Source: a bacterium (GTDB taxonomy: Bacteria; Electryoneota; RPQS01). From it: DNA of 64,000 nucleotides. How positions within the stretch are numbered: position 1 is the stretch's first letter; every line of letters begins with the position of its first letter. A program made the translations under genes and the position numbers. Shown here one piece after another: positions 14,145 through 27,848 of this stretch. The notes beneath the pieces were generated by a model. The model had not been told where the DNA came from. It saw nothing but the letters and a program-made list of their open reading frames with translations, and ran no database searches. Location of the stretch: NCBI GenBank assembly GCA_036504735.1, contig DASXUQ010000001.1:1-64000 (forward strand). Direction: 5' to 3'.

Positions 14145-14338
14145 CGGGAATGGGTTCGTGAGCGGGCAGACCCCCATCCCCCCGGCCCGCTTTCCTCATG
14201 AAATAGGGAAAGGGGGAGAAGAGAGGGAGTGCGCAGTCTCCACGGAGAATCCTTACGACGCCGAGCAGGCGATACAGGTGCAGGGGTTACCCCTGCGTTG
14301 CAAGTGTGAAAAGAAATTGTTAAACTTATTTGAAACAC

Positions 14339-15583
14339 ATGAATGTCATTAACCACACCTACTCTCTGCCGCATGTGCAGCAGATCTCTTGCCCTCCGGT
14401 CTGGCGGGCTTGGGATGGGCTGGCGGCGGCGTATGCACCGGCTTTTTTATGGCGGGAGCGGGCCGGGCAAGAGGTGGTGCTGGCCTTAGGTGCGGCGGGG
14501 GTCTACTCCAGTTTGACTGAATGCCGGAAGGCTCTGGCTTCGGATCACGGCGCGCCGCTGGCTTTCGGGATGGTGGCCTTCGATCCGCGCTCGATCCTGC
14601 TTGCGCCGTGGGAAGGGTTTCAGAGCAGCCTGTTTGTGGTGCCGAAGGTGCTGGTGCGATGGAAAGACGGGATTGCCAGTATCTGGGGCCAGGAGAAGGC
14701 GCTGGCGGATGTGGTGGATGCTTTGCAGAATCCGCCGCCGCCGAGACGGCTGTTGGATGTGGATGGGGGACGCGCCTTTTCGGAAGCGGAATGGACGAAG
14801 GCCGTGCGGGCCATGCAGGCGCATATTGCCGCGGGGGCTATTACCAAGGCGGTGCTGGCGCGGGATTCGATTCGTGAAAGTGCCGCGCCGGTTCAGGCGG
14901 GGTATGTGCTGGAGCGGCTTGCGAGTTCCACACCGGATTGTTACCTTTTTGCGCACGGTATGAACGGCGCCACATTTTTGGGCGCATCCCCGGAACGGTT
15001 ATTCCGGCTGGATCGTTCTATGGTGGAAACCGAGAGCCTGGCGGGAACGCGTCCGCGCGGGAAAACCGCCCGCGAGGATGAGCGGCTGGCGCAGGAGCTG
15101 CTGCATTCGGCTAAAGAGAACATCGAGCAGAATATCGTCACGCAGTTCTTGCAGCAGGGCCTCGCGGAATTGTGCGTGGCAGTGAGTGACGATCTGGAAC
15201 CGCACGTGCGCAAGCTGGCGGGGCTCCAACATCTGCACACGCGCATCCACGGACAGTTGAAAGACAATGTGACGCCGGACGACGTGCTGCACGCGCTGCA
15301 TCCGACGCCAGCGGTGTGTGGGATGCCGAAGGAGCAGGCGCGGGAGATTATCGCCGAACTGGAGCCTGTGCCGCGCGGGCTGTATGCCGGGGCGATTGGC
15401 TGGATGGATGCGGAGCGCGCGGAGCTTGCCGTGGCGATTCGCTCGGCGTTGTTGAAGGATCGCGTCGCCCGCGTGTTTGCCGGCGCGGGAATTATCGCCG
15501 CGTCGGATGCCAAAGCCGAGTGGCGGGAAACCGCGCTGAAAATGAAACCGATGCTGTCTGCCTTGAACTGCGAGGAGCTGTGA
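14339..15583 (+). CDS. menF: Isochorismate synthase MenF
   Basis: 414 residues from the ATG at 14339 (a TTG at 14330 is possible; neither has a clear Shine-Dalgarno). Chorismate-binding-enzyme motifs are all in the C-terminal half: LAGTRPRGKTAREDERLAQE, HSAKENIEQN, HLHTRIHGQL, HPTPAVCGMP, LYAGAIGW and the final GAGI with KAEWRETALKMKPML. It converts chorismate to isochorismate, the first committed step to menaquinone. First gene of the men operon; its stop overlaps the menD start. Family sister enzymes (EntC, DhbC, salicylate synthase) are excluded mainly by context. Confidence 0.93.
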   Translation: MNVINHTYSLPHVQQISCPPVWRAWDGLAAAYAPAFLWRERAGQEVVLALGAAGVYSSLTECRKALASDHGAPLAFGMVAFDPRSILLAPWEGFQSSLFVVPKVLVRWKDGIASIWGQEKALADVVDALQNPPPPRRLLDVDGGRAFSEAEWTKAVRAMQAHIAAGAITKAVLARDSIRESAAPVQAGYVLERLASSTPDCYLFAHGMNGATFLGASPERLFRLDRSMVETESLAGTRPRGKTAREDERLAQELLHSAKENIEQNIVTQFLQQGLAELCVAVSDDLEPHVRKLAGLQHLHTRIHGQLKDNVTPDDVLHALHPTPAVCGMPKEQAREIIAELEPVPRGLYAGAIGWMDAERAELAVAIRSALLKDRVARVFAGAGIIAASDAKAEWRETALKMKPMLSALNCEEL

Positions 15584-17316
15584 ATCTTCCGAACGTAAAT
15601 TATCTGCATGCGACGGTTCTTCTGAAGCAATGGATGGCCTGCGGCGCGCGCCGCGTTGTAATTTCTCCCGGCTCCCGCTCTACCCCACTGGCCCTTGCCG
15701 CCGCTGAGCTTCCTGAACTTGAAACCTATGTACTGACCGACGAGCGGTCGGCGGCATTTTTTGCGCTGGGCCTCTCCAAAAGCGACGGTGTGCCGGCGAT
15801 TCTGATTTGCACATCGGGCACCGCCGCGGCCAACTATTTTCCCGCAGTGATTGAAGCCGCGCAGTCCGCCGTGCCCTTGATTGTGCTGACCGCCGACCGG
15901 CCGCTGACGCTGCGAGGCAGCGGCGCGCCGCAGACGATGGATCAGTCCCATTTGTATGGGGGTTATGCGCGGTTCTTTGCCGATCTTCCCGAAGCCAGAT
16001 TAGACCTTGACCATTGCCGCGCGGTGCGGTCGATTGCCGCGGATGCGTTTTCCCATGCGGTGACGGTTCCGCGCGGTCCGGTACATCTGAATGTTCCATT
16101 GGATGAACCGCTGGCGCCGGTGCTGCGGGATGAGCGGGTGTGCCACGCGTTATGGACGGAGTTGCAGGCGGAAGGCCAGATTCGTATTTCTTCCCGTGTG
16201 CCGCGCGTGGTCTCTGCGGAGACCCTTCGGCGGCTGTCGATTGTGCTGGGGGACTCGCTGTGCGGATTGATTGTGGCGGGGGTGGACGCGGCGCGGAGCA
16301 GCGAAGAGGCGGAAGCGCTGTATCTGTTGAGCCGGCAGCTCGGCTGGCCGGTGTTCGCCGACGTGCTGTCCGGCTTGCAGGGATACGGCTATCCGGTTTT
16401 CCCACACTATGATATTTTTCTGCGCGATGAGGAATTGGCAGGGCTGGCGCCGGATGTGGTGCTGATGTTCGGCGGGTTTCCCACATCGAAGGCGCTGAAC
16501 GTCTATCTGGACCGCCACCGGGCGGCCAATACGATTCAGGTGGACTCGCGCGGACTTCCCGCCGATCCCACATTCCGCGCCAATGAGCGGATTGAGGCGG
16601 ATGTGGCGCCGCTCTGTCACAGTCTGGCACGGGCCAGCAAGTCCTCGCGGGACTCGCTGATTCTCGAACCCTTCCGTCAGGCGGCCTTTTTTATCGGCAC
16701 GGCGCTGGAGAAGGATGCCGCCCAAGCGGAGTGCGAAGCTTTGTATGTGCTGGAAGCGGCGCGCGCCATGCCGGAGCAGGCGGCGATTGTGCTGGCCAGC
16801 AGCATGCCTGTGCGCTATGCCGATGCCCTGCTCGGCGGGAAGGCGTTTCACGTGTACGGACTGCGCGGGGTAAACGGGATCGACGGCACCATTTCCCATG
16901 CGGCGGGAATTGCGGCGGCGTCGGGGAAACCCACGCTGCTGGTCACGGGAGATCTGGCCTTCATCCACGATATGAATGGATTAATCGCGGCCGTGCGCCA
17001 CGCGCCGAGCCTTTCGATTGTGCTGCTGAACAACAACGGCGGCGGAATTTTCCATTTCCTGCCCGTACACAAGCATGAAAACACCGCGCAGTTCGAGAAG
17101 CTGCACGGCACACCGCATGGCCTCGATCTGTCTGCCGCGGGCAGACTCTTCGGGCTGGAGTGGCAAACGGCTGCCGGACCGCAACAGGCGGGAGACCTGC
17201 TTTCACAGAAACATTCCGGGGTACGCGTCATTGAAGTCAGGACGTCGCGCGAGGCAAATCATCGCGCTTTTTCGGAACTGGTCTCACGGCTGGGAAAGGA
17301 GGCTATCCGCTTATGA
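15580..17316 (+). CDS. menD: SEPHCHC synthase MenD
   Basis: 578 residues. The GTG at 15580 overlaps the menF stop as GTGA, with GAGGAG just upstream, and gives the conserved start NxxYLHATVLLKQWMACG. RRVVISPGSRSTPL, TSGTAAANYFPAVIEA and LTADRP are hallmark N-terminal sequences; the thiamine-diphosphate region (GVNGIDGTISHAAG, GDLAFIHDMNGL, NNNGGGIF) is intact. It joins isochorismate and 2-oxoglutarate, releasing CO2, to form SEPHCHC in the cytoplasm. Coupled to menH by an ATGA overlap at its end. Confidence 0.96.
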   Translation: MNLPNVNYLHATVLLKQWMACGARRVVISPGSRSTPLALAAAELPELETYVLTDERSAAFFALGLSKSDGVPAILICTSGTAAANYFPAVIEAAQSAVPLIVLTADRPLTLRGSGAPQTMDQSHLYGGYARFFADLPEARLDLDHCRAVRSIAADAFSHAVTVPRGPVHLNVPLDEPLAPVLRDERVCHALWTELQAEGQIRISSRVPRVVSAETLRRLSIVLGDSLCGLIVAGVDAARSSEEAEALYLLSRQLGWPVFADVLSGLQGYGYPVFPHYDIFLRDEELAGLAPDVVLMFGGFPTSKALNVYLDRHRAANTIQVDSRGLPADPTFRANERIEADVAPLCHSLARASKSSRDSLILEPFRQAAFFIGTALEKDAAQAECEALYVLEAARAMPEQAAIVLASSMPVRYADALLGGKAFHVYGLRGVNGIDGTISHAAGIAAASGKPTLLVTGDLAFIHDMNGLIAAVRHAPSLSIVLLNNNGGGIFHFLPVHKHENTAQFEKLHGTPHGLDLSAAGRLFGLEWQTAAGPQQAGDLLSQKHSGVRVIEVRTSREANHRAFSELVSRLGKEAIRL

Positions 17317-18146
17317 CCGATGTAGCTGCCAGCAGTATTGACTGGCACGTGGCCTGGCAGGGAGATCCGCAATTGCCGGTGCTCGCGCTGGCGCACGGGT
17401 TTGCCGGATCGCTGCACGCCTGGGAGCATCTGATTGTCGATCTTGAGCAGCATTTCCATCTGATGCTGATTGACCTGCCCGGGCACGGCAAGACACCGCT
17501 GCCGCCCGAACCGGAGATGAATCTGGTGCGCCTTGGCACGGCGCTGGGGCAGTTGATTTCCACCGCCGCCGAAGAACCGGTCAGCCTGTGCGGGTACAGC
17601 ATGGGCGGGCGGATTGCACTGCACACCGCGCTGTATGCGCCCGAGATGGTGAAATCGCTGGCACTGATCGGCGCGTCACCGGGAATTGCGGACGCAGTCG
17701 AACGCGAGGAGCGGCGCAAGGCGGACCGTGAATTGGCCGCCATGATTCGCACCAGAGGGATCGAATGGTTTGCGGACTTCTGGGGCAACCTGCCGCTGTT
17801 CGCGTCGCAGAAATCGCTCGCGCCGTCGGTGCAGGAAAACCTGCACCGGTCACGGCTGCATAACGATCCGGAAGGCTTGGCCATTGCGCTGGAGCATTTC
17901 GGCGTAGGCACGCAGGAGGATCTGCATCCCAAGCTGAGTCAACTAAAATGCCCCGTGCTGCTGATTGCCGGGGCGCTGGACAAAAAATACTGCCGTTCCA
18001 ATGCGGTCTTCGAACAGTCGACGCAAGGCGGTGTTCATCTCAAGCGGGCAGAGATTCACGGCGTCGGCCATGCGGCGCACGTCGAAGCGCCGGATCTGGT
18101 GGCGCAGGAACTCATCGAATTTTTTGAAGTCGGCATCATCTCCTAA
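17313..18146 (+). CDS. menH: SHCHC synthase MenH (alpha/beta hydrolase)
   Basis: 277 residues, ATG overlapping the menD stop (ATGA), AAGGAGG ten bases upstream. Alpha/beta-hydrolase triad: Ser in GYSMGGR (nucleophile elbow), Asp in GALDKKY and His in [23 protein letters not shown] carries the oxyanion-hole HG. It removes pyruvate from SEPHCHC to give SHCHC. Position between menD and menB supports menH over a generic hydrolase. Confidence 0.92.
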
Positions 18147-18987: not shown

Positions 18988-20526
18988 ATGAAGAATCTCC
19001 CTCTGCTGCAGCGCGGCGGCTTCGTGCTCGCGGCCTTCCTGCTGATTACCCTGCTTGCTCATCTGCTTACAGCCACTCACTACCCGATGTTCCGGGATGA
19101 GTTTTATTATCTCGACTGCGCCAATCATCTGGATTATGGCTACGTCGATCAGCCGCCGTTTTCGATTTTTGTGCTGGACGGCTGGCGGATGATTTTCGGC
19201 GATTCGCTGTTTGCCGTGCGGCTGCTGCCCTCGCTGCTGGCGGTGGCGCTGATGTGGCTGACGTGGAAGATCACCGAGGAGATGGGTGGCGGACTGTTTG
19301 CGCGTACGCTGGCCTGCGGAGCCGCGTTCTTTTCGCCGCAGTTGCGCGCGCTGGCGGGATTTTACTCGATGAATGCCTTCGATCTGGTCTTCTGGGCGGC
19401 GGCGGCGCTGATTCTGATCCGCATTGCCAAGACCAACGACTCCCGGTTGTGGATTCCTTTCGGAATTATTGCCGGGTGGGGACTGCTCAACAAGATCAGC
19501 CTGCTCTATTTCGGCGCGGGGCTGATTGTTGCGATGGCGCTGACGCCGCTACGCCGGCAGTTCGCGCGCCGGCAGTTCTGGATCGGCGGGATCATGGCTC
19601 TGCTGCTGTTTCTGCCGTATGTGCTGTGGCAGTTTTCCCATGAGTTTGCCACGCTGCAGTTCATCCGCAATGCCACGGCCTTCAAGAATGCCGCGTTTGC
19701 CCCGCACCAGTTTCTGATGGAATTCGCGCTGGAAAATAATCCGATTTCGATTCTGCTGTGGCTGGGCGGGCTCGGCGTGCTGTTGTTTTACAAACCGCTG
19801 CGGACCTTCCGGTTTTTAGGATGGCTGGCGCTGACGGTGCTGGTGATTCTGATGACCAACAAGGGCAAGCCCTATTATGCGGCGGGGCTGTTTCCGCTGC
19901 TGATTGCTTCCGGCGCGGTGTGGCTGGAAAGTAAATTCGCGCTGCCGCGACTGAAGTGGGCGCGGCTTGCTTATGCGGGATTGCTGGTGGCCGGCGGGTT
20001 GCTGCTGCTGCCGTTCGGATTGCGGATTTTGAATCCGGAAACATACATTGACTATCAATGGACGCTGGGGATCGAGCCGAAGGCGAGCGAGAAGGGCCAA
20101 CAGGATGCGCTCTGGCCGCAGCACTATGCCGATTCCTTCGGCTGGGAAGAGCTTGCGCAGGCAACCGTGCGGGCTTATAACCAGCTTGACCCGGAAGAGA
20201 AAAAGGATTGCGTGATTTTTGCGCGCAACTACGGCGAGGCCGGGGCCATCAACTATTACTGCCGCAAACAGGGGCTGCCCGAAGCGGTGTGCGGCCATAA
20301 CAACTACTACTTCTGGGGACCACCCGTCGTGGGCGTACACACGGTGTTCCTCGTGGTTGCCAAGCCGGAGCGGGATCCGCGCGACGTGTTCGATTCGATC
20401 TTTGTCGGCGGCGGCAGCGACAATGATTATGCCATGCCTACCGAACGCAAACTGGTGGTCTTCATCGGGCGCGGCATTCACCGCTCGCTCGCGGAAATTT
20501 GGGCTGCGAATAAGAGTTTCGATTGA
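18988..20526 (+). CDS. Membrane glycosyltransferase, GT39/ArnT-like
   Basis: 512 residues, starting six bases after menB. About ten hydrophobic segments follow an N-terminal loop with FRDEFYYLDCANHLDYGYV, where the Asp-Glu pair is the catalytic motif of PMT/ArnT-type glycosyltransferases that use polyprenyl-phosphate sugars. LLNKISLLYFG and NKGKPYYAAGLFPLL are also typical. The C-terminal 150 residues are a soluble, presumably periplasmic domain. It probably modifies lipid A, glycans or proteins at the inner membrane. It has no known role in menaquinone synthesis although it sits inside that operon. Confidence 0.82.
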   Translation: MKNLPLLQRGGFVLAAFLLITLLAHLLTATHYPMFRDEFYYLDCANHLDYGYVDQPPFSIFVLDGWRMIFGDSLFAVRLLPSLLAVALMWLTWKITEEMGGGLFARTLACGAAFFSPQLRALAGFYSMNAFDLVFWAAAALILIRIAKTNDSRLWIPFGIIAGWGLLNKISLLYFGAGLIVAMALTPLRRQFARRQFWIGGIMALLLFLPYVLWQFSHEFATLQFIRNATAFKNAAFAPHQFLMEFALENNPISILLWLGGLGVLLFYKPLRTFRFLGWLALTVLVILMTNKGKPYYAAGLFPLLIASGAVWLESKFALPRLKWARLAYAGLLVAGGLLLLPFGLRILNPETYIDYQWTLGIEPKASEKGQQDALWPQHYADSFGWEELAQATVRAYNQLDPEEKKDCVIFARNYGEAGAINYYCRKQGLPEAVCGHNNYYFWGPPVVGVHTVFLVVAKPERDPRDVFDSIFVGGGSDNDYAMPTERKLVVFIGRGIHRSLAEIWAANKSFD

Positions 20527-20575
20527 GGAAGAGGCTATTGTATTCGAATACAGGTCAGCAAACGGGAGTGGCCGA

Positions 20576-22321
20576 ATGACCTCTAGTAAGTGTGCATCGG
20601 GATGTGGCCGGGACGTATATGACAACGCCAATTATCCGACGAACAAATGCATTTTCCACTCCGAGAAAAAGGACTCAGCTGAGTTCTATGAGGAGATCGG
20701 AAACTTAGTTCATTCAGTCCAGCAATATTGGAATGCGCCTTGTTCGTTCAATGGTTTCGTCTTCCCCGACTGCCCGAACCCGAGGACACTTGTTGAAATC
20801 CTCGGACGCTCTCATGCGGGGATCTTTTGCTTGGACTTTAGTGGTGCGGTGTTCGAAGGAAGGATTGATCTTTCTGGTTACCATTTTCAGGCGGGACTGA
20901 CTTTCGAGCGTGCTACTTTCAAGTGCGACGCTCTCTTTGACGGATCAAATATGCCGCTGGGAGTCTCATTCGCTGGTACAACGTTTGAGGGCTTGACCCG
21001 CTTCGTTGGCACATTTTTCCAAGCTAATGCCAACTTCCAAGGAGCAAAGTTTCGTCAAAGTTCTTTTGAAAGCGCCACGTTCAAAGGACAGGTCACATTT
21101 CTCAAAGTTTTCTTTGCTGAACCGGCCTCCTTTTGTAAGGCCAAGGTGGCCGGGTGCGGTGTTTGGTCTAGATCAGAGTTCTTGGACACTGCGGACATGT
21201 CTTGTATGGTATTCTCCGATAGAGCTTTGTTCCAAGATACGATCTTTCACAACATAGCCTCTTTCCACAGCGCCAAGTTCAAGGGCGAGGTTCGCTTCGA
21301 TAACGCTCTGTTTCGTGAAGATGTGTCATTCTCTAGAGTGTCGTTTGAAGACCATGCGCATTTTGCTGAAACCAAGCTCGCCAGAGGCCTAAACTTGGGT
21401 TATGCATCTTTCGCCGTCCTCGGTGATTTCAGTCGGTGCAAGATTATCAGTCGCGTCAGGTTAACTTGGCCTGGTGAAGGTGCAAAGCGGGAGCCGGCCG
21501 AGCACCAGACGGCAGAGGTAAGACGCGGAATTTTGCAATTCAAAAGCCCCAATTTTGGTGTACGCGGGCTCCTTGACATTCGAGACAATATGTTGCAGCC
21601 GGATTGCTCTCTGCACTTGGTTGACTGTGATATGGCTAAGGTGCTACTACAAGGAACAGATTGTAGAATGGTCCGCTTTAAGTATTGCCGTTGGCCGAAG
21701 GTTACGCATAGACAAGTTGTTGGTGACGAGTACCGTGCACGGAAGCACTTCAGGAGCCTAAGGACTGTGCTCGTACGTATTTTGCCTTTCGCGCGCGCAT
21801 TGATGAATCACCCACGGTTGACCTTCGCCTTGATGTTCCGACCTAAGGAGGTGAATTGGCCCCGCATCATTACTATTTATCAAGAACTGGTAGACAACTG
21901 CCGTGAAATACATGACTACCGTCGAGTGAACGACTTTGACCGTGGCATTTTTGAAGCTCGGCGAATGATTGCAAAGAGTCGAGGGCGGCGAGGCATTTCG
22001 GATTACCTACTATTATCGACATACCGATCTGTATCAGCTTATAGCGGCAGTTTGCTAAAGCCAGTCATATGGCTTGTGGCGAGCACTCTCGCTTATGCAT
22101 ACTTCTACTGGGGCAATAGCTACGCCATAGACGCGGAGACAGGGCTTCTATCTGATTTCATAAAGAAAAGTGTACAAATTGCCTCTCTGAACCGGATCGG
22201 ATTCGAGTTTGCTCGTGCGAACTCGCTCGCGGTAAATGTCCTCATCGCACTGCAAGTCGTAACGACTACGGGATTGGTTGCACTTCTCTTGTTTTCTATA
22301 CGACGGCGTTTCAAACACTGA
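20576..22321 (+). CDS. Membrane-anchored pentapeptide-repeat protein
   Basis: 581 residues from the ATG at 20576 (GGGAG upstream). An N-terminal Cys/His cluster (Cys6, Cys10, Cys25, His28, in KCIFH) looks zinc-binding. About residues 85-270 are pentapeptide repeats with Phe every fifth residue (LDFSG AVFEG, AKFRQ SSFES ATFKG), predicting a right-handed quadrilateral helix. Two transmembrane segments close the protein (VIWLVASTLAYAYFYW and VLIALQVVTTTGLVALLLF). Base composition is visibly more AT-rich and codon choice less biased than in the flanking men genes, which suggests later acquisition. Function unknown; similar Cys-repeat-membrane proteins occur sporadically in many phyla. Confidence 0.82.
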   Translation: MTSSKCASGCGRDVYDNANYPTNKCIFHSEKKDSAEFYEEIGNLVHSVQQYWNAPCSFNGFVFPDCPNPRTLVEILGRSHAGIFCLDFSGAVFEGRIDLSGYHFQAGLTFERATFKCDALFDGSNMPLGVSFAGTTFEGLTRFVGTFFQANANFQGAKFRQSSFESATFKGQVTFLKVFFAEPASFCKAKVAGCGVWSRSEFLDTADMSCMVFSDRALFQDTIFHNIASFHSAKFKGEVRFDNALFREDVSFSRVSFEDHAHFAETKLARGLNLGYASFAVLGDFSRCKIISRVRLTWPGEGAKREPAEHQTAEVRRGILQFKSPNFGVRGLLDIRDNMLQPDCSLHLVDCDMAKVLLQGTDCRMVRFKYCRWPKVTHRQVVGDEYRARKHFRSLRTVLVRILPFARALMNHPRLTFALMFRPKEVNWPRIITIYQELVDNCREIHDYRRVNDFDRGIFEARRMIAKSRGRRGISDYLLLSTYRSVSAYSGSLLKPVIWLVASTLAYAYFYWGNSYAIDAETGLLSDFIKKSVQIASLNRIGFEFARANSLAVNVLIALQVVTTTGLVALLLFSIRRRFKH

Positions 22322-22359: not shown

Positions 22360-23238
22360 ATGGTGTCTCTTCATAACTGGATCTTAGCCTCCCGTCCGAA
22401 GACGCTGGTGGCGGCGATTGTGCCGGTGATTGTCGGGGCGGCGTATGTGCACGCGGCGGCGGTGGAGCAGTGGCCGATTTTGCTGTGCGCACTGGCCTCG
22501 GCGCTGTGCATTCAGATCGGCACCAATTTCGCCAACGACTATTCCGATTTCAAAAAGGGCGCGGATACCGCCGAGCGCCTCGGGCCGGTGCGCGTCACGC
22601 AGGCGGGGCTGATCAAGCCGTCGACGGTCAAGGCGGGCGCGATGCTCGCCTTTGCTGTGGCTGTGCTGTTCGGGATTCCACTGATTTTGCGCGGCGGCTG
22701 GCCGATTCTGCTCATCGGCGTGTTCAGCATTCTCTCCGGCTGGGCCTACACGGGCGGACCGTATCCTTTGGGCTACAACGGGCTGGGCGAGTTGTTTGTG
22801 TTTCTGTTTTTCGGCCTGGCGGCGGTGACGGGAACCGCCTATGTGCTCACGCTGCAGTGGGACCCCTTAGTGCCGGCGATTGCCACCATTCCGGGGCTGC
22901 ATGCATCGGCGTTGCTGGCCGTCAACAATCTGCGGGATGTGGACACCGACCGCGTGGCAGGCAAACGGACCCTCGCGGCGCGTTTCGGCAGAACCTTTGG
23001 CCGGGTGGAATACGCTTTGCTCCTCCTGCTGCCGTATGCCATCATTCTTGCATTGTTTGCGTTTTCACACCTGAAGTCGCCGGCACTGCTGCCCCTGCTT
23101 TCGCTGCCGCTGATAGTGCCACCCGTGAAACGTGCGTTATCGCGCACCGACGGGCCGGGCATGATCCGCGCACTGGCGGGAACGGCCTTGGTGCAGCTTG
23201 CATTCGGCGCTCTTCTTGCCATCGGTCTTATCCTGTGA
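22360..23238 (+). CDS. menA: 1,4-dihydroxy-2-naphthoate polyprenyltransferase MenA
   Basis: 292 residues, eight or nine transmembrane segments. Both Asp-rich motifs of the UbiA superfamily are present: NFANDYSDFKKGAD (about 52-65) and NNLRDVDTDRVAGKRTLA (about 190-207). WILASRPKTLVAAIVPV is the standard MenA start. It attaches the polyprenyl side chain to DHNA in the inner membrane, giving demethylmenaquinone. Its stop overlaps the menC start as GTGA. Confidence 0.95.
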   Translation: MVSLHNWILASRPKTLVAAIVPVIVGAAYVHAAAVEQWPILLCALASALCIQIGTNFANDYSDFKKGADTAERLGPVRVTQAGLIKPSTVKAGAMLAFAVAVLFGIPLILRGGWPILLIGVFSILSGWAYTGGPYPLGYNGLGELFVFLFFGLAAVTGTAYVLTLQWDPLVPAIATIPGLHASALLAVNNLRDVDTDRVAGKRTLAARFGRTFGRVEYALLLLLPYAIILALFAFSHLKSPALLPLLSLPLIVPPVKRALSRTDGPGMIRALAGTALVQLAFGALLAIGLIL

Positions 23239-24287
23239 CGTCACATCCCTTAGCTTTCGCACCCTACGAACTGGCTTTTCGGAACCCCCTGCACACCGCG
23301 CGCGGCGTCATCACGCTGCGGTGCGGATTTCTGGTTGCGTTGCGAGTCGGCAACGCCGTGGGCATCGGCGACGTCGCACCGTTGCCGGACTTCGGGACGG
23401 AAACGGTTGAGGAAGCCGGGCAGAAGCTTGAAGAAAAGCGAAAAACGAAAAACGAAAAGCTGGATCTGGAGCTGGATTGCCTTGACGGGTTTCCGGCCAC
23501 GCGCTTCGGACTGCAATGCGCCCTGCTGGCGCTGGAAGGTCAGCCATCTGAAGGGGCAAGAGAAATTCCCGTCAATGCATTGATCGGCGGGGGAACGGTG
23601 CGGGAGGCCTGGGTGGCGGGGCAGAAGGCGGTGGAAGCAGGCTACGAAACGCTGAAGGTGAAGGTGGGAATGCGGACCGTGCGGCAGGACATCGAAATCT
23701 TCCGCGTGCTGCGCTCGGCATTTCCCAAGCTTGCGCTAAGGGCCGACGCCAATGGCGCGTGGTCCTTCGATGAGGCGCGGCAATTTGCGCACGGCGTAAC
23801 CGCCTGCGAGCTGCAATACATTGAGGATCCGCTGAAAGATCCTGATACGGAGGCGCTGTCGGTTTTTCGACGTAACTGTGAGGTTCCCGTAGCCTGCGAC
23901 CGGATGGCGGATTCGGTGGAGGATATCGAAGCGCTGATTGAGCGCCGCCTGTGTGATGTGCTGGTGCTGAAGCCGTCGGTGATCGGCTCCATCCGTAAAC
24001 TTGAACAGCTCGCGGACAAGGCAAAAGCGGCGGGGATGGCAGTGGTGATCAGCAGCCTGCTGGAATCGAGCGTGGGCCTTTCCTACGTTGCGCATCTGGC
24101 GGCGCGTTGCGGCACGGAGGGATTGGCGCACGGCATCGGCACGGCAGAGATGTTCGAAACGGATATGCTGCGCACACCGTTTTGTCCGGTAAAGGGTAAG
24201 ATTGCGTTGCCGGATCTTTCGGCTCTGCAATATGCAGTGATTCCCGGCATGGCGGCCGGACTCGGATTACAGGAAAGCGATGAGTAA
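23235..24287 (+). CDS. menC: o-Succinylbenzoate synthase MenC
   Basis: 350 residues from the GTG at 23235, overlapping the menA stop. Enolase-superfamily residues are intact: KVKVG (acid/base Lys), metal ligands in RADANGAW, YIEDP and ACDRM, and the second catalytic Lys in LVLKPSVIGS. It dehydrates SHCHC to o-succinylbenzoate. A charged stretch (EKRKTKNEKLDLEL, about 60-73) looks like a lineage-specific insertion. The last eight bases overlap menE. Confidence 0.93.
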   Translation: MTSHPLAFAPYELAFRNPLHTARGVITLRCGFLVALRVGNAVGIGDVAPLPDFGTETVEEAGQKLEEKRKTKNEKLDLELDCLDGFPATRFGLQCALLALEGQPSEGAREIPVNALIGGGTVREAWVAGQKAVEAGYETLKVKVGMRTVRQDIEIFRVLRSAFPKLALRADANGAWSFDEARQFAHGVTACELQYIEDPLKDPDTEALSVFRRNCEVPVACDRMADSVEDIEALIERRLCDVLVLKPSVIGSIRKLEQLADKAKAAGMAVVISSLLESSVGLSYVAHLAARCGTEGLAHGIGTAEMFETDMLRTPFCPVKGKIALPDLSALQYAVIPGMAAGLGLQESDE

Positions 24288-25734
24288 ACAGGACTGGTTC
24301 AGCAAACAGACCGAAGGCACGCACTCGCATTTGTCCGACCTCAACGGCTCGATGCCCGATGAGGAGTTCAACGGCAAGACGTTGCGCCTCGCGCAGATGC
24401 TGGCGGAGCGTTTCCCCGAACGGAATGCGCGGATCGGCCTGTGGGGCGAGAACAGTCTCGACTATGTGATCGCCCTGTTTGCCGTGCTCCGCGCCGGACA
24501 TGTGGCGGTGCCGCTCAACACACGCCTGTCCGCACGGGAATTGCAGGATCTTGCGGAAGCCGCCGGGCTCAGCGGTGTGCTGGCCTCGCGCGATTTTCCG
24601 CAGTCGCACCGCGAGGTGTTCAATGGCCTGTCCATGTTCGCCCTCGCTCAGAAGCTTGCGCCGCTCGGTCCCAATGCCAAGCCTCCTCGCATGCGCGAAC
24701 TCGGCGAGAAAGACGTGGCCGTGCTGCTCTGTTCCTCGGGCAGTTCGGGCAAGCCCAAGATCGTACCGTTCACGCTGCGCAGCCTGTTCTCTCACGCCCG
24801 CGCGGTGTGCAGCCATCTGAATGTCACCTGGCGCGATTCCTGGGTGGCGTGTCTGCCGCTCTACCACGTCGGCGGCCTGGCGATTCCTTTCCGCTGCATG
24901 GTCTCGGGAGCCTCGTTGATTCTCAGTCAGAGCAGTGATCCGGATGATCTCCACCATTTGATCACCGCGGAAAATGTGACACTGATCTCCGTGGTGCCGA
25001 CGGCCCTCGAACGGATGCTGAACAAACGCGGCTCCGATCCGTATCCCAAGACATTGCGCGGCCTGCTGGTCGGCGGCGGCCCCGTGGCCGATGCGCTGCT
25101 GGCTCGCTGCGACCGCGCCTATGCGACGTACGGTCTTACCGAAGCAGGCTCGATGGTGAGCTGCGCGCGGCCGGGATGCGGCGACAAAGAGCGGCGCACC
25201 GCCGGACCGGCCCTGCCGGATACCGAGATTAAGATTGTCGATGAAAAGGGGAAGGACATCCGGAAGGGCGAGGCGGGACAGATTCTGGTGCGGGGACCGG
25301 GCATGGCCGCCGGCTATCTGGGAAATTCGGAAGCCAGTGCGCGCACCTTCCGCTCAGGCTGGATTCACACGGGAGACATTGGCCGCCTGGACGAGAGCGG
25401 ACTGCTGAAGGTTGAAGCGCGACGCGGGGACATTGTGCTCTCCGGCGGGGAGAATATTTATCCGGCGGAGATCGAAGCGGCACTCAAAAAGCATCCGCGT
25501 GTGGAGGCCGCGATTGTCTTGCCGGTGGATCATCCCGAATGGGGACAGACACCCGCCGCACTGATCGTGCTCAAGCCGGGCCGTCCCTTGGAAAAGACCC
25601 ACATCTACATGTTCCTTGAAGGCCATCTTGCCCGCTACAAGTTTCCCAAGAAGATCCTCTTCGCCGACGCCTTGCCGCTTCTGTCCACCGGAAAACCGGA
25701 TCTGGCGGCCATTCGAAAGATGTTGAAGGGCTGA
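24280..25734 (+). CDS. menE: o-Succinylbenzoate-CoA ligase MenE
   Basis: 484 residues, ATG inside the end of menC. Adenylate-forming enzyme with intact motifs: P-loop SSGSSGKPK (about 151-159), YGLTEAG, HTGDIGRLD, RRGDIVLSGGENIYPAEIE (hinge and A8) and the C-terminal catalytic Lys in STGKPDLAA. It activates o-succinylbenzoate with ATP and CoA for MenB. It is slightly unusual in the P-loop (SSGSSGK where most have TSGTTGK). Followed by a terminator-like hairpin and a diverged second copy. Confidence 0.94.
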   Translation: MSKQDWFSKQTEGTHSHLSDLNGSMPDEEFNGKTLRLAQMLAERFPERNARIGLWGENSLDYVIALFAVLRAGHVAVPLNTRLSARELQDLAEAAGLSGVLASRDFPQSHREVFNGLSMFALAQKLAPLGPNAKPPRMRELGEKDVAVLLCSSGSSGKPKIVPFTLRSLFSHARAVCSHLNVTWRDSWVACLPLYHVGGLAIPFRCMVSGASLILSQSSDPDDLHHLITAENVTLISVVPTALERMLNKRGSDPYPKTLRGLLVGGGPVADALLARCDRAYATYGLTEAGSMVSCARPGCGDKERRTAGPALPDTEIKIVDEKGKDIRKGEAGQILVRGPGMAAGYLGNSEASARTFRSGWIHTGDIGRLDESGLLKVEARRGDIVLSGGENIYPAEIEAALKKHPRVEAAIVLPVDHPEWGQTPAALIVLKPGRPLEKTHIYMFLEGHLARYKFPKKILFADALPLLSTGKPDLAAIRKMLKG

Positions 25735-25758
25735 AAGCGGCAGCGTGCTGAGTGCGAA

Positions 25759-25785
25759 GGGCGGCCTCATGGGACCGCCTTTTTG
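25759..25785 (+). terminator. Probable terminator after menE
   Basis: A short hairpin around GGCGG/CCGCC with an imperfect extension, followed by TTTTTG, 24 bases after the menE stop. It probably ends the main men transcript. The remaining 190 bases to the second menE-like gene hold no gene. Confidence 0.6.
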
Positions 25786-25979
25786 TTGGTACGCCTGTAC
25801 AGAAATATGGGTTGGTCGGCCACGTCGCTCACGCCGTTGTAGACGGGCAAGTATATTCCTTAGAGTCTGGCAGAGTGTTTGCATCATCTGTAATCAAAAG
25901 CTCAGCATGACAACCGGCATGATCGAGCAAACAAGGGCTTAACCGTTCACGCACGAAAGCCTTGGGGTATTTGACGCAG

Positions 25980-27401
25980 ATGAGTGCTTTAAGTTGGTTG
26001 ACATCCACCATTCGAGGACCGAAATCCCGGCCCTTTAATTGGGACCACCTGCTGCCGCACGGTGAATTCCGCGATCAAATCCTGCGCACAGCGGCGTTTC
26101 TCAGCGAGCGGTTTTCCGGGCATCATGCGCGGATCGGTCTCTGGGGCGAATGCACGGAGGGCTATCTGGCGGCCTTTCTGGCCATCTTACGTGCCGGTCA
26201 CACAGCGGTGCCGCTGGATCCGCGGCTCGGCAGTCATGAACTGACCGACATCGTCCACTCGGCAAAGATCGCGGGGTTGCTGGTGTCGCGGGATTTCCCT
26301 ATTGCCTACAGCGCGGCGCTGGGTAATACGAAGATTTACCCTCTTAGCCCCTATCTCCGGTCCAAGACCTGCGGGGGGCAGGATTCCGGGCCACCGGTGG
26401 CTGACGGCGCGGATGCGGCGGTGATGTTGTGCGGGTCGCGCTGCGACCGCAGCACGCGGATGATTACCTTCGCCCTTCCCTCGCTGATCCGTCACGCGCA
26501 GGTTGTCTGCTCCCACTTGAATGTGACGGCGGAAGACGCATGGCTGATGTCCGTGCCTCTGCATTGTGTGGCGGGGCTGGTGATTCCCTTCCGCTGCCTG
26601 GTGTCGGGAGCCTCCCTGCGGATGTGCACCGCGCGGGATCCCGATGAGATCAACCGGCTGATCGATACCGGCCGGGTCTCCATCGTGTCGGCGACGCCGG
26701 ATATGTTCGACAAGATGCTGCGGCGGCACGGGACTCATCCTTATTTGGGAAATCTGCGCGCCATTTTCATCAGCGGCATTGTGCCGGAACTGCAACTGCT
26801 GCGCTGCCCGCAGGCGTGCATGGTGTACGGTGTGGCCGAGGCGGGCTCCATGGTGAGCTGTTCACGTCCGGGATGCACGGCGGAAGAACACCTGAGCGCC
26901 GGGCCCGTGTTGCCGGGCATGGGAGTGCGCATTATCGGGTCGGACGGAAAAGATGTGCGGCGGGGAGAACGGGGCCGGATTCTGGTGCGGGGGCTGGATG
27001 CAAGCGGCGAAGGACAGCGGGCAGGCTGGGTGCAGACGGAAGACTACGGATATCTCGATGGACACGGTTATCTGCATCCGGAGCCGCATCAGGACGATGC
27101 GGCAGGATCGGGTGAAAACAGTGTGTGCACGGTCGAGATCCAGACGCTTCTCGAACGCCATCCCCGGGTGCAGCGGGTGATTGTGGTGTCTATGGAGGAC
27201 AAGGAGTGGGGGCAGGTTCCAGCGGCGCTGGTGGTCTTGACGCCGGGACGTCCCATGGAGAAGACGCACCTGTTCCAGTTTCTGGAGGGCAAACTGGCGC
27301 GCTACAAATTCCCCAAGAAGATCATCTTCGCCGATGCCCTGCCGCTCTTGTCTGGCGGCAAACCGGATTTGGCGGCGATTCGGAAGCTGCTGAAGGGCTG
27401 A
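25980..27401 (+). CDS. Degenerate MenE paralog, probable pseudoenzyme
   Basis: 473 residues; the ATG at 25980 is chosen because the resulting N-terminus aligns with that of menE (a TTG at 25962 is possible). The protein is collinear with menE and nearly identical over the last 45 residues, including catalytic Lys in SGGKPDLAA, yet the ATP-handling motifs are lost: the P-loop position reads CGSRCDRSTRM instead of CSSGSSGKPKI, HTGD became QTED, and RRGDIVLSGGENIYP became PHQDDAAGSGENSVC. The frame is open throughout. It is inferred to be a tandem duplicate kept without ligase activity or with altered chemistry; early-stage pseudogenisation is the alternative. Confidence 0.8.
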   Translation: MSALSWLTSTIRGPKSRPFNWDHLLPHGEFRDQILRTAAFLSERFSGHHARIGLWGECTEGYLAAFLAILRAGHTAVPLDPRLGSHELTDIVHSAKIAGLLVSRDFPIAYSAALGNTKIYPLSPYLRSKTCGGQDSGPPVADGADAAVMLCGSRCDRSTRMITFALPSLIRHAQVVCSHLNVTAEDAWLMSVPLHCVAGLVIPFRCLVSGASLRMCTARDPDEINRLIDTGRVSIVSATPDMFDKMLRRHGTHPYLGNLRAIFISGIVPELQLLRCPQACMVYGVAEAGSMVSCSRPGCTAEEHLSAGPVLPGMGVRIIGSDGKDVRRGERGRILVRGLDASGEGQRAGWVQTEDYGYLDGHGYLHPEPHQDDAAGSGENSVCTVEIQTLLERHPRVQRVIVVSMEDKEWGQVPAALVVLTPGRPMEKTHLFQFLEGKLARYKFPKKIIFADALPLLSGGKPDLAAIRKLLKG

Positions 27402-27437: not shown

Positions 27438-27848
27438 TTACGCATATTTCGTCAGCGCCTGACGGAAATCATCCGGCAGGGGCATGGAGGCGCCGGTCTT
27501 GGGGTCGACGCAGACCTGCACGGTGGCGGCGGTGGCCATGCGACGGCCATCTTCCGACCAAAGTTCATAGGCCATGCGGTACGAGGAGCTGCCGATCTGC
27601 GCCACGTGCGCGCGGATTTCCACCTTCATGCCCACCGTGAGCATCTGCTCGAAGTCGCCTTCGGCATGCACCACCGGCAATCCCATGGTGCGGCGGCCAA
27701 ACAGCACGGGCAATCCGAAGCCGATGTCCGCCAGGAATCCTTCGAGAGCATGCTGGCAGATGCGGAAAAGATTGGCGTAGAAAATAATCTGCGCCGCGTC
27801 CGTATCATAGAGGGCGATGGTATAGGGTAAACGGAAGATTTTGGGCAT
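27438..27848 (-). CDS. Hotdog (4HBT) thioesterase, candidate DHNA-CoA hydrolase
   Basis: 136 residues. YDTDAAQIIFYANLFRICQHALE is the active-site helix of 4HBT thioesterases (spaced YxTDxAxxxxYxNxF), with the catalytic Asp in place; VHAEGDFEQML and VGMKVEIRAHV are standard strands. The men operon needs a DHNA-CoA thioesterase between MenB and MenA, none of the men genes here supplies it, and this gene converges on the operon end 36 bases away, so a MenI-like role is a reasonable inference. A general acyl-CoA thioesterase remains possible. Confidence 0.8.
   Translation of the reverse strand: MPKIFRLPYTIALYDTDAAQIIFYANLFRICQHALEGFLADIGFGLPVLFGRRTMGLPVVHAEGDFEQMLTVGMKVEIRAHVAQIGSSSYRMAYELWSEDGRRMATAATVQVCVDPKTGASMPLPDDFRQALTKYA

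Follow-up and report, generated by a model that had tools for sequence, protein, structure and literature searches.

In this work we describe a full-length paralog of MenE, encoded directly 3' of an intact menE within a menaquinone gene cluster, that has evolved under purifying selection and has lost several residues used for ATP binding. It was examined within a 64,000-nucleotide stretch of bacterial DNA (hereafter the window), and the paralog is probably both retained and non-adenylating. Our leading reading, held tentatively, is that it represents a retained MenE pseudoenzyme that arose by tandem duplication of menE and serves as a binding partner or regulator of MenE. In this one genome it would appear to combine the features by which pseudoenzymes are defined, namely the loss of catalytic residues together with a fold and a gene kept by selection. 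Should the paralog act on MenE, quinone biosynthesis would contain a pseudoenzyme with a regulatory function, at a step whose control in B. subtilis proceeds, according to PMC11619455, through acetylation of the A10 Lys of MenE. More generally, the case would show that a tandem duplicate can shed catalysis while selection keeps its fold, although its reach is limited to a single genome pending sister genomes.

Homology and genomic context of the paralog

The paralog (25980..27401, + strand) opens with an ATG at 25980, runs through 473 open codons and closes with a stop codon ending at 27401. It aligns end to end with the adjacent intact menE (24280..25734, + strand; 484 aa) at 46-48% identity (BLASTP 224/487, 46%, E 2e-152), a score that excludes chance resemblance. 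Coordinates, alignment and BLASTP thus bear out an earlier, sequence-only reading of this DNA, which had described an open, full-length 473-codon copy beside an intact menE. Both domains of the ANL superfamily, AMP-binding (PF00501, 112.1 bits) and AMP-binding_C (PF13193, 52.7 bits), were detected in the paralog above their cut-offs, and its predicted fold also matches MenE, placing it within the superfamily. On the MenE equivalog model TIGR01923, by comparison, it scores 167.9 bits, well below the cut-off of 330.15, while the neighbouring menE, in which the catalytic motifs are present, reaches 335.5.

Immediately upstream of this pair lie menA (22360..23238, + strand; NF004751 321.6 bits and TIGR00751 202.4 bits, both above cut-off) and menC (23244..24287, + strand; TIGR01927 204.6 bits, above cut-off). 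Further upstream, a menF-like (chorismate-binding) frame at 14330-15583 and a menH-like (alpha/beta hydrolase) frame at 17313-18146 were labelled by reading the sequence, with Pfam support; a menD-like frame between these two and a menB-like frame following the menH-like one were likewise labelled by reading. A 4HBT thioesterase gene (27438..27848, - strand; PF13279 55.5 bits) is convergent with the paralog, giving the overall order menF-like, menD-like, menH-like, menB-like, mannosyltransferase-like, pentapeptide-repeat, menA, menC, menE, paralog and 4HBT thioesterase.

A 245-base gap (25735-25979) separates menE from the paralog and holds a terminator-like hairpin followed by a T run (25756..25784, + strand; RNA fold -16.5 kcal/mol, z -1.9), which suggests that the paralog may be expressed separately from menE. 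A consensus scanner reported no terminator at this hairpin, the only promoter-like match in a scan of the region was on the opposite strand, and reading the sequence upstream of the paralog ATG revealed no clear ribosome-binding site. These observations, together with the hairpin between the two genes, tell against the retained-pseudoenzyme reading.

Loss of the ATP-site motifs

The motif replacements listed in the earlier reading were confirmed by alignment of the two proteins. At the A3 P-loop, SSGSSGKPK of menE (residues 152-160) stands opposite GSRCDRSTR of the paralog (residues 152-160; 26433..26459, + strand), with eight of nine residues changed; elsewhere HTGD aligns with QTED and RRGDIVLSGGENIYP with PHQDDAAGSGENSVC. 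The paralog loop departs from the A3 consensus (T/S)SG(S/T)TGxPK and carries G154R, G157R and K160R, each at a column on which every other row of the alignment agrees. The A4 His has become Cys196 (H196C; 26565..26567, + strand) and the former A8 segment (residues 369-388; 27084..27143, + strand) carries R370H, G379E and E388Q, leaving neither the A4 His nor the A8 Arg in place. At the position of the A10 catalytic Lys, Gly460-Lys461 (27357..27362, + strand) is retained, within a tail that has possibly been converted. Further losses, absent from the earlier reading, include the A4 His itself, one Gly of the GGGPV loop, two A5 substitutions (T to A and L to V) and, at GPGMAAGYLG, a gap of 10 residues. 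A local compensated frameshift in the P-loop was ruled out, since the codons of the two genes align gap-free over it; the alignment is also gap-free from residue 345 to the end, with gaps elsewhere. QTED was set aside as a sign of inactivity, given that TED or SED occupies A7 in the MenE of four of the ten family relatives (G002, G010, G007 and G005), whose P-loops look intact. 'IYP' is variable too among the MenE of relatives.

These losses were placed in the context of 13 other rows, comprising MenE and more distant homologs from the same phylum that are 29-66% identical to MenE, several of them just 24-32% identical to the paralog. With invariance assessed among covering rows, the paralog breaks 11 of 36 invariant columns and keeps 25, while each of the 13 rows left out in turn breaks 0-5. 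Two of the rows (L059 and L060) are partial sequences, which accounts for part of their gaps, and the alignment omits the incomplete MenE of G004 and G005. The broken columns are the P-loop, A4 and A8 substitutions named above together with V239T, a Gly deletion, G265S and a Tyr deletion; those kept include A5 Tyr283-Gly284 and Glu287, A7 Asp355 and A10 Gly460-Lys461. Among 113 columns invariant in seven family MenE the paralog keeps 76, and its losses fall more often in the ATP motifs (16/31) than elsewhere (21/82; Fisher p 0.013, with motif ranges set by us).

Single substitutions at equivalent sites are costly: PMC8388817 gives activity drops of 1000-fold, 14-fold and 4-fold for P-loop Gly163, Gly166 and Lys169, and of 500-fold and 100-fold for His207 and Arg400. 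We read the numbering of that source as 4-chlorobenzoate:CoA ligase, with positions matching those lost in the paralog. The combined P-loop, A4 and A8 losses, set beside these published costs of 4- to 1000-fold, make the loss of adenylation very likely.

In the MenE of G002 (L054:3102-4559), A7 reads TED and A8 contains ESVAP; this protein has TEDYG, DD and SV in common with the degenerate paralog, a likeness that could reflect either convergence or shared ancestry.

Distribution and age of the duplication

The pair was found in one of 11 family genomes, every one of which was matched at least once at E 1e-3, with no second strong match in the other ten. Across the phylum it was found in one of 39 genomes, 13 of which matched at 1e-25, the other 12 with one such match each. 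The orthologs in relatives that the sequence-only reading had suggested looking for were therefore absent from the 10 other family and 38 other phylum genomes, and the case for retention is drawn from a single sequence. The comparison set contains one genome of the paralog's genus, and since several relatives are fragmented or incomplete (G003 is 56% complete, and the matches in G004 and G005 lie at contig ends), absence of the paralog from them is weak evidence. In G002 and G009, the two relatives in which gene order was read, a thioesterase-like frame follows menE on its 3' side, directly or one long frame later; no second menE copy lies between the two, and tblastn of these stretches located one menE place in each. 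A protein-pattern scan of genome contigs with the paralog alone returned no match, and the scan with the alignment returned MenE relatives; the named ones come from metagenome bins whose labels read candidate division KSB1, Calditrichaeota or simply bacterium.

In the phylogenetic tree, placement of the paralog received support of 32/26, and AU tests rejected neither its grouping with menE (p 0.49) nor a position outside a group of five MenE (p 0.445). Its branch is long (1.12, compared with 0.26 for menE). Identity at four-fold sites between paralog and menE (26/65) is near the chance level of 0.35 and does not exceed that between menE and its G009 ortholog (56/107), from which we conclude that the duplication is probably old.

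The C-terminal tail of the paralog (residues 419-473; 27234..27398, + strand) constitutes a candidate gene-conversion tract. It is 84% identical to menE (46/55), compared with 42% for the body (175/418; p 5e-9). The last 45 residues, previously described as nearly unchanged, are 84% identical to menE as well. No such excess was seen between menE and its closest ortholog in G009 (tail 36/55, body 272/416), and comparisons of tail and body between menE and four orthologs gave p values of 1, 0.039, 0.31 and 1. Third-position identity between paralog and menE is also higher in the tail (0.64) than in the body (0.40), and eight of the nine first bases after the two stop codons match. Taken together, these similarities suggest that menE sequence was copied over the tail by gene conversion, in a tract extending beyond the stop codon. 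Tests restricted to third positions in same-residue codons gave p 0.15 with a cut at residue 429 and p 0.02, 0.04, 0.13 and 0.08 with cuts at 440, 450, 455 and 460, and a test of menE-specific residues in the tail was not significant (p 0.26). Moreover, the paralog tail is, relative to its body, closer to G009 and G002 as well, as constraint on the C-terminal domain alone would bring about; such constraint can account for part of the likeness, and overwriting of the tail by conversion is plausible rather than established. The retention of the A10 Lys and of a little-changed tail, which had appeared puzzling, stands as an observation (K461) but may reflect conversion from menE. Conversion of the tail would make the retained Lys a passenger, and given this prospect the Lys is weak evidence of function.

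Selective constraint on the paralog

Selection was assessed with a codon branch model (custom script, F3x4 frequencies, one kappa, six sequences, 469 columns). With paralog and menE as sisters, lnL was -8135.4 whether dN/dS was single or free, and fell to -8167.4 when the paralog branch was fixed at 1; across all 469 columns, dN/dS = 1 on that branch was rejected with 2dlnL of 64 (topology P1P2) and 60 (P1anc). Exclusion of the tail (after residue 418) left this result in place under three topologies, with 2dlnL of 56-60 for a free branch and 68-80 for one tied to menE. Synonymous sites are near saturation, so the dN/dS value itself hangs on the clock assumption: tied to the menE clock, with the tail excluded, it is 0.29-0.31 for the paralog and 0.10 for the rest, whereas the free-branch estimate of 0.06 is untrustworthy, the branch length being at its bound. 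Setting the paralog branch to half or twice the menE length gave dN/dS of 0.49 and 0.18, respectively, with 1 rejected in both cases (2dlnL 28 and 153, all columns). Region by region, dN/dS = 1 was rejected in five of six regions at a threshold of 3.84, the exception being 271-340 around A5 (2dlnL 3.6). The comparison of menE and paralog proposed in the earlier reading therefore yields a dN/dS well below 1.

The same reading had argued that a neutral gene would gather stop codons over 1.4 kb, which a neutral model supports. Under neutral change beginning at the menE sequence, about 10 stops are expected at 1.34 substitutions per codon, the length that fits dN/dS = 1 (P(none) 3e-5), and 4 at 0.5 substitutions per codon (P(none) 0.017), whereas the 473 codons of the paralog contain zero. 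In addition, its synonymous codon score (0.222) is close to that of menE (0.286) and far from the null (-0.135, sd 0.038), and its GC by codon position (0.65/0.49/0.74; menE 0.65/0.47/0.75) is host-like, as in neighbouring genes. The paralog has evolved under purifying selection that is weaker than on MenE and clearly stronger than neutral; dN/dS, missing stops and codon bias together rule out a mostly neutral history and with it a long-neutral pseudogene.

A decaying pseudogene of another kind, in which selection on an old duplicate was relaxed and the final step of decay came recently, we regard as unlikely. A very recent loss of function may be compatible with the dN/dS, stop and codon data, and the missing orthologs, the long branch, the broken catalytic motifs, a weak start region and a clock-tied dN/dS roughly threefold that of the other branches would all fit this account. 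It is opposed by the rejection of dN/dS = 1, the open frame where about 10 stops were expected, the intact codon bias, and the change of eight of the nine P-loop residues, which requires a long period of non-adenylating evolution with the frame kept open. Of the two signs of a young decaying duplicate offered beforehand, a dN/dS near 1 and the lack of orthologs in relatives, only the second was found.

Predicted fold and possible role

AlphaFold2 models were built with 14 sequences, with menE as a control. The paralog model reached pLDDT 78.0 and pTM 0.69 (menE control 86.3 and 0.84), with low confidence at the former P-loop and A8, falling below 50 at 371-381 within the former A8 segment. The best Foldseek match to it in the PDB is B. 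subtilis MenE (5x8f, TM 0.76), and the model points to a two-domain ANL protein. The paralog thus resembles MenE (TIGR01923; B. subtilis MenE 5x8f/5bur) in whole-length homology, men-cluster location, predicted fold and the presence of the A5 Glu, A7 Asp and A10 Lys, and differs from it in lacking the P-loop, A4 His, A5 Thr and A8 Arg.

We propose that a tandem duplication of menE inside the men cluster would have given rise to a copy in which the P-loop, A4 His and A8 Arg were lost, and with them ATP binding and adenylation, while it kept its frame, its host-like codon usage and two thirds of the residues invariant across family MenE. Such a protein would make no o-succinylbenzoyl-AMP, and its job would presumably be binding, most likely to the intact MenE, which it would serve as partner or regulatory subunit and whose stability or activity it would set; alternatively its ligand may be OSB or the OSB CoA ester. 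With an intact MenE encoded next door, a partner or regulatory role is the simplest guess, and we consider it possible but rather doubtful when taken by itself. The sequence-only reading had likewise imagined a regulator or partner of MenE or a binder of CoA esters; dN/dS, absent stops, codon usage and structural residues uphold its retained full-length copy lacking the ATP-site motifs, whereas the role we infer from context. As a functional analogy, HisZ, the regulatory subunit of ATP phosphoribosyltransferase, is built like an enzyme but acts by regulating a catalytic subunit. HisZ resembles histidyl-tRNA synthetase; its fold is unrelated to that of the MenE paralog, and the enzyme it regulates is not known to be its own paralog. 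No MenE pseudoenzyme or degenerate MenE paralog appeared in the titles and abstract openings searched, a coverage that takes in few subscription papers.

Less likely again than recent decay is a neofunctionalised enzyme whose pocket was rebuilt for another reaction. The three Arg gained in the former P-loop, the retained A5 Glu, A7 Asp and A10 Lys, the Cys at or beside three former motif sites and the larger Cys total (13, seven in menE) are consistent with it; there is, however, no hint of a substrate, model confidence is low at the former P-loop and A8, and conversion may have carried the A10 Lys along as a passenger.

The A8 elements of ANL enzymes serve thioester formation, and those of the paralog are broken too, which tells against a split ligase in which MenE would make OSB-AMP and the paralog would carry out CoA transfer alone. 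That division of labour, which we consider improbable, has a precedent in the ANL paralogs PtmA1 and PtmA2, which according to PMC6594144 can divide the two half-reactions; menE and its paralog are adjacent genes, but in the same source MenE elsewhere performs both steps by itself. PtmA2, an acyl-CoA ligase homolog from platensimycin biosynthesis that does not adenylate, may be likened to the paralog as an ANL protein working beside an adenylating partner (PMC6594144), and its chain 5upq is among the PDB sequence matches of the paralog; it belongs to another pathway. Lastly, a sequencing or assembly error concealing a normal second menE can be dismissed, as more than half of the paralog residues differ from menE, the frame is kept throughout and the motifs were altered by substitutions that stay in frame.

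Additional features of the locus

The paralog contains 13 Cys, compared with seven in menE, and the new Cys155, Cys196 and Cys383 (26442-27128) lie in or beside the former A3, A4 and A8. As a long shot, one can conceive of a MenE-like subunit dedicated to regulation within menaquinone biosynthesis and sensing a pathway ligand or the redox state, in which these three residues would replace the ATP pocket by a metal or thiol switch.

The men cluster is itself interrupted between menB and menA by the mannosyltransferase-like and pentapeptide-repeat genes (18988-22321), and GC drops to 0.52 in 20001-22000, at the pentapeptide-repeat part of this interruption. In G009, a TrkH-like transporter frame (L053:5107-6486, labelled by reading) occupies the equivalent position, suggesting that the menB-menA gap may be a variable insertion point.
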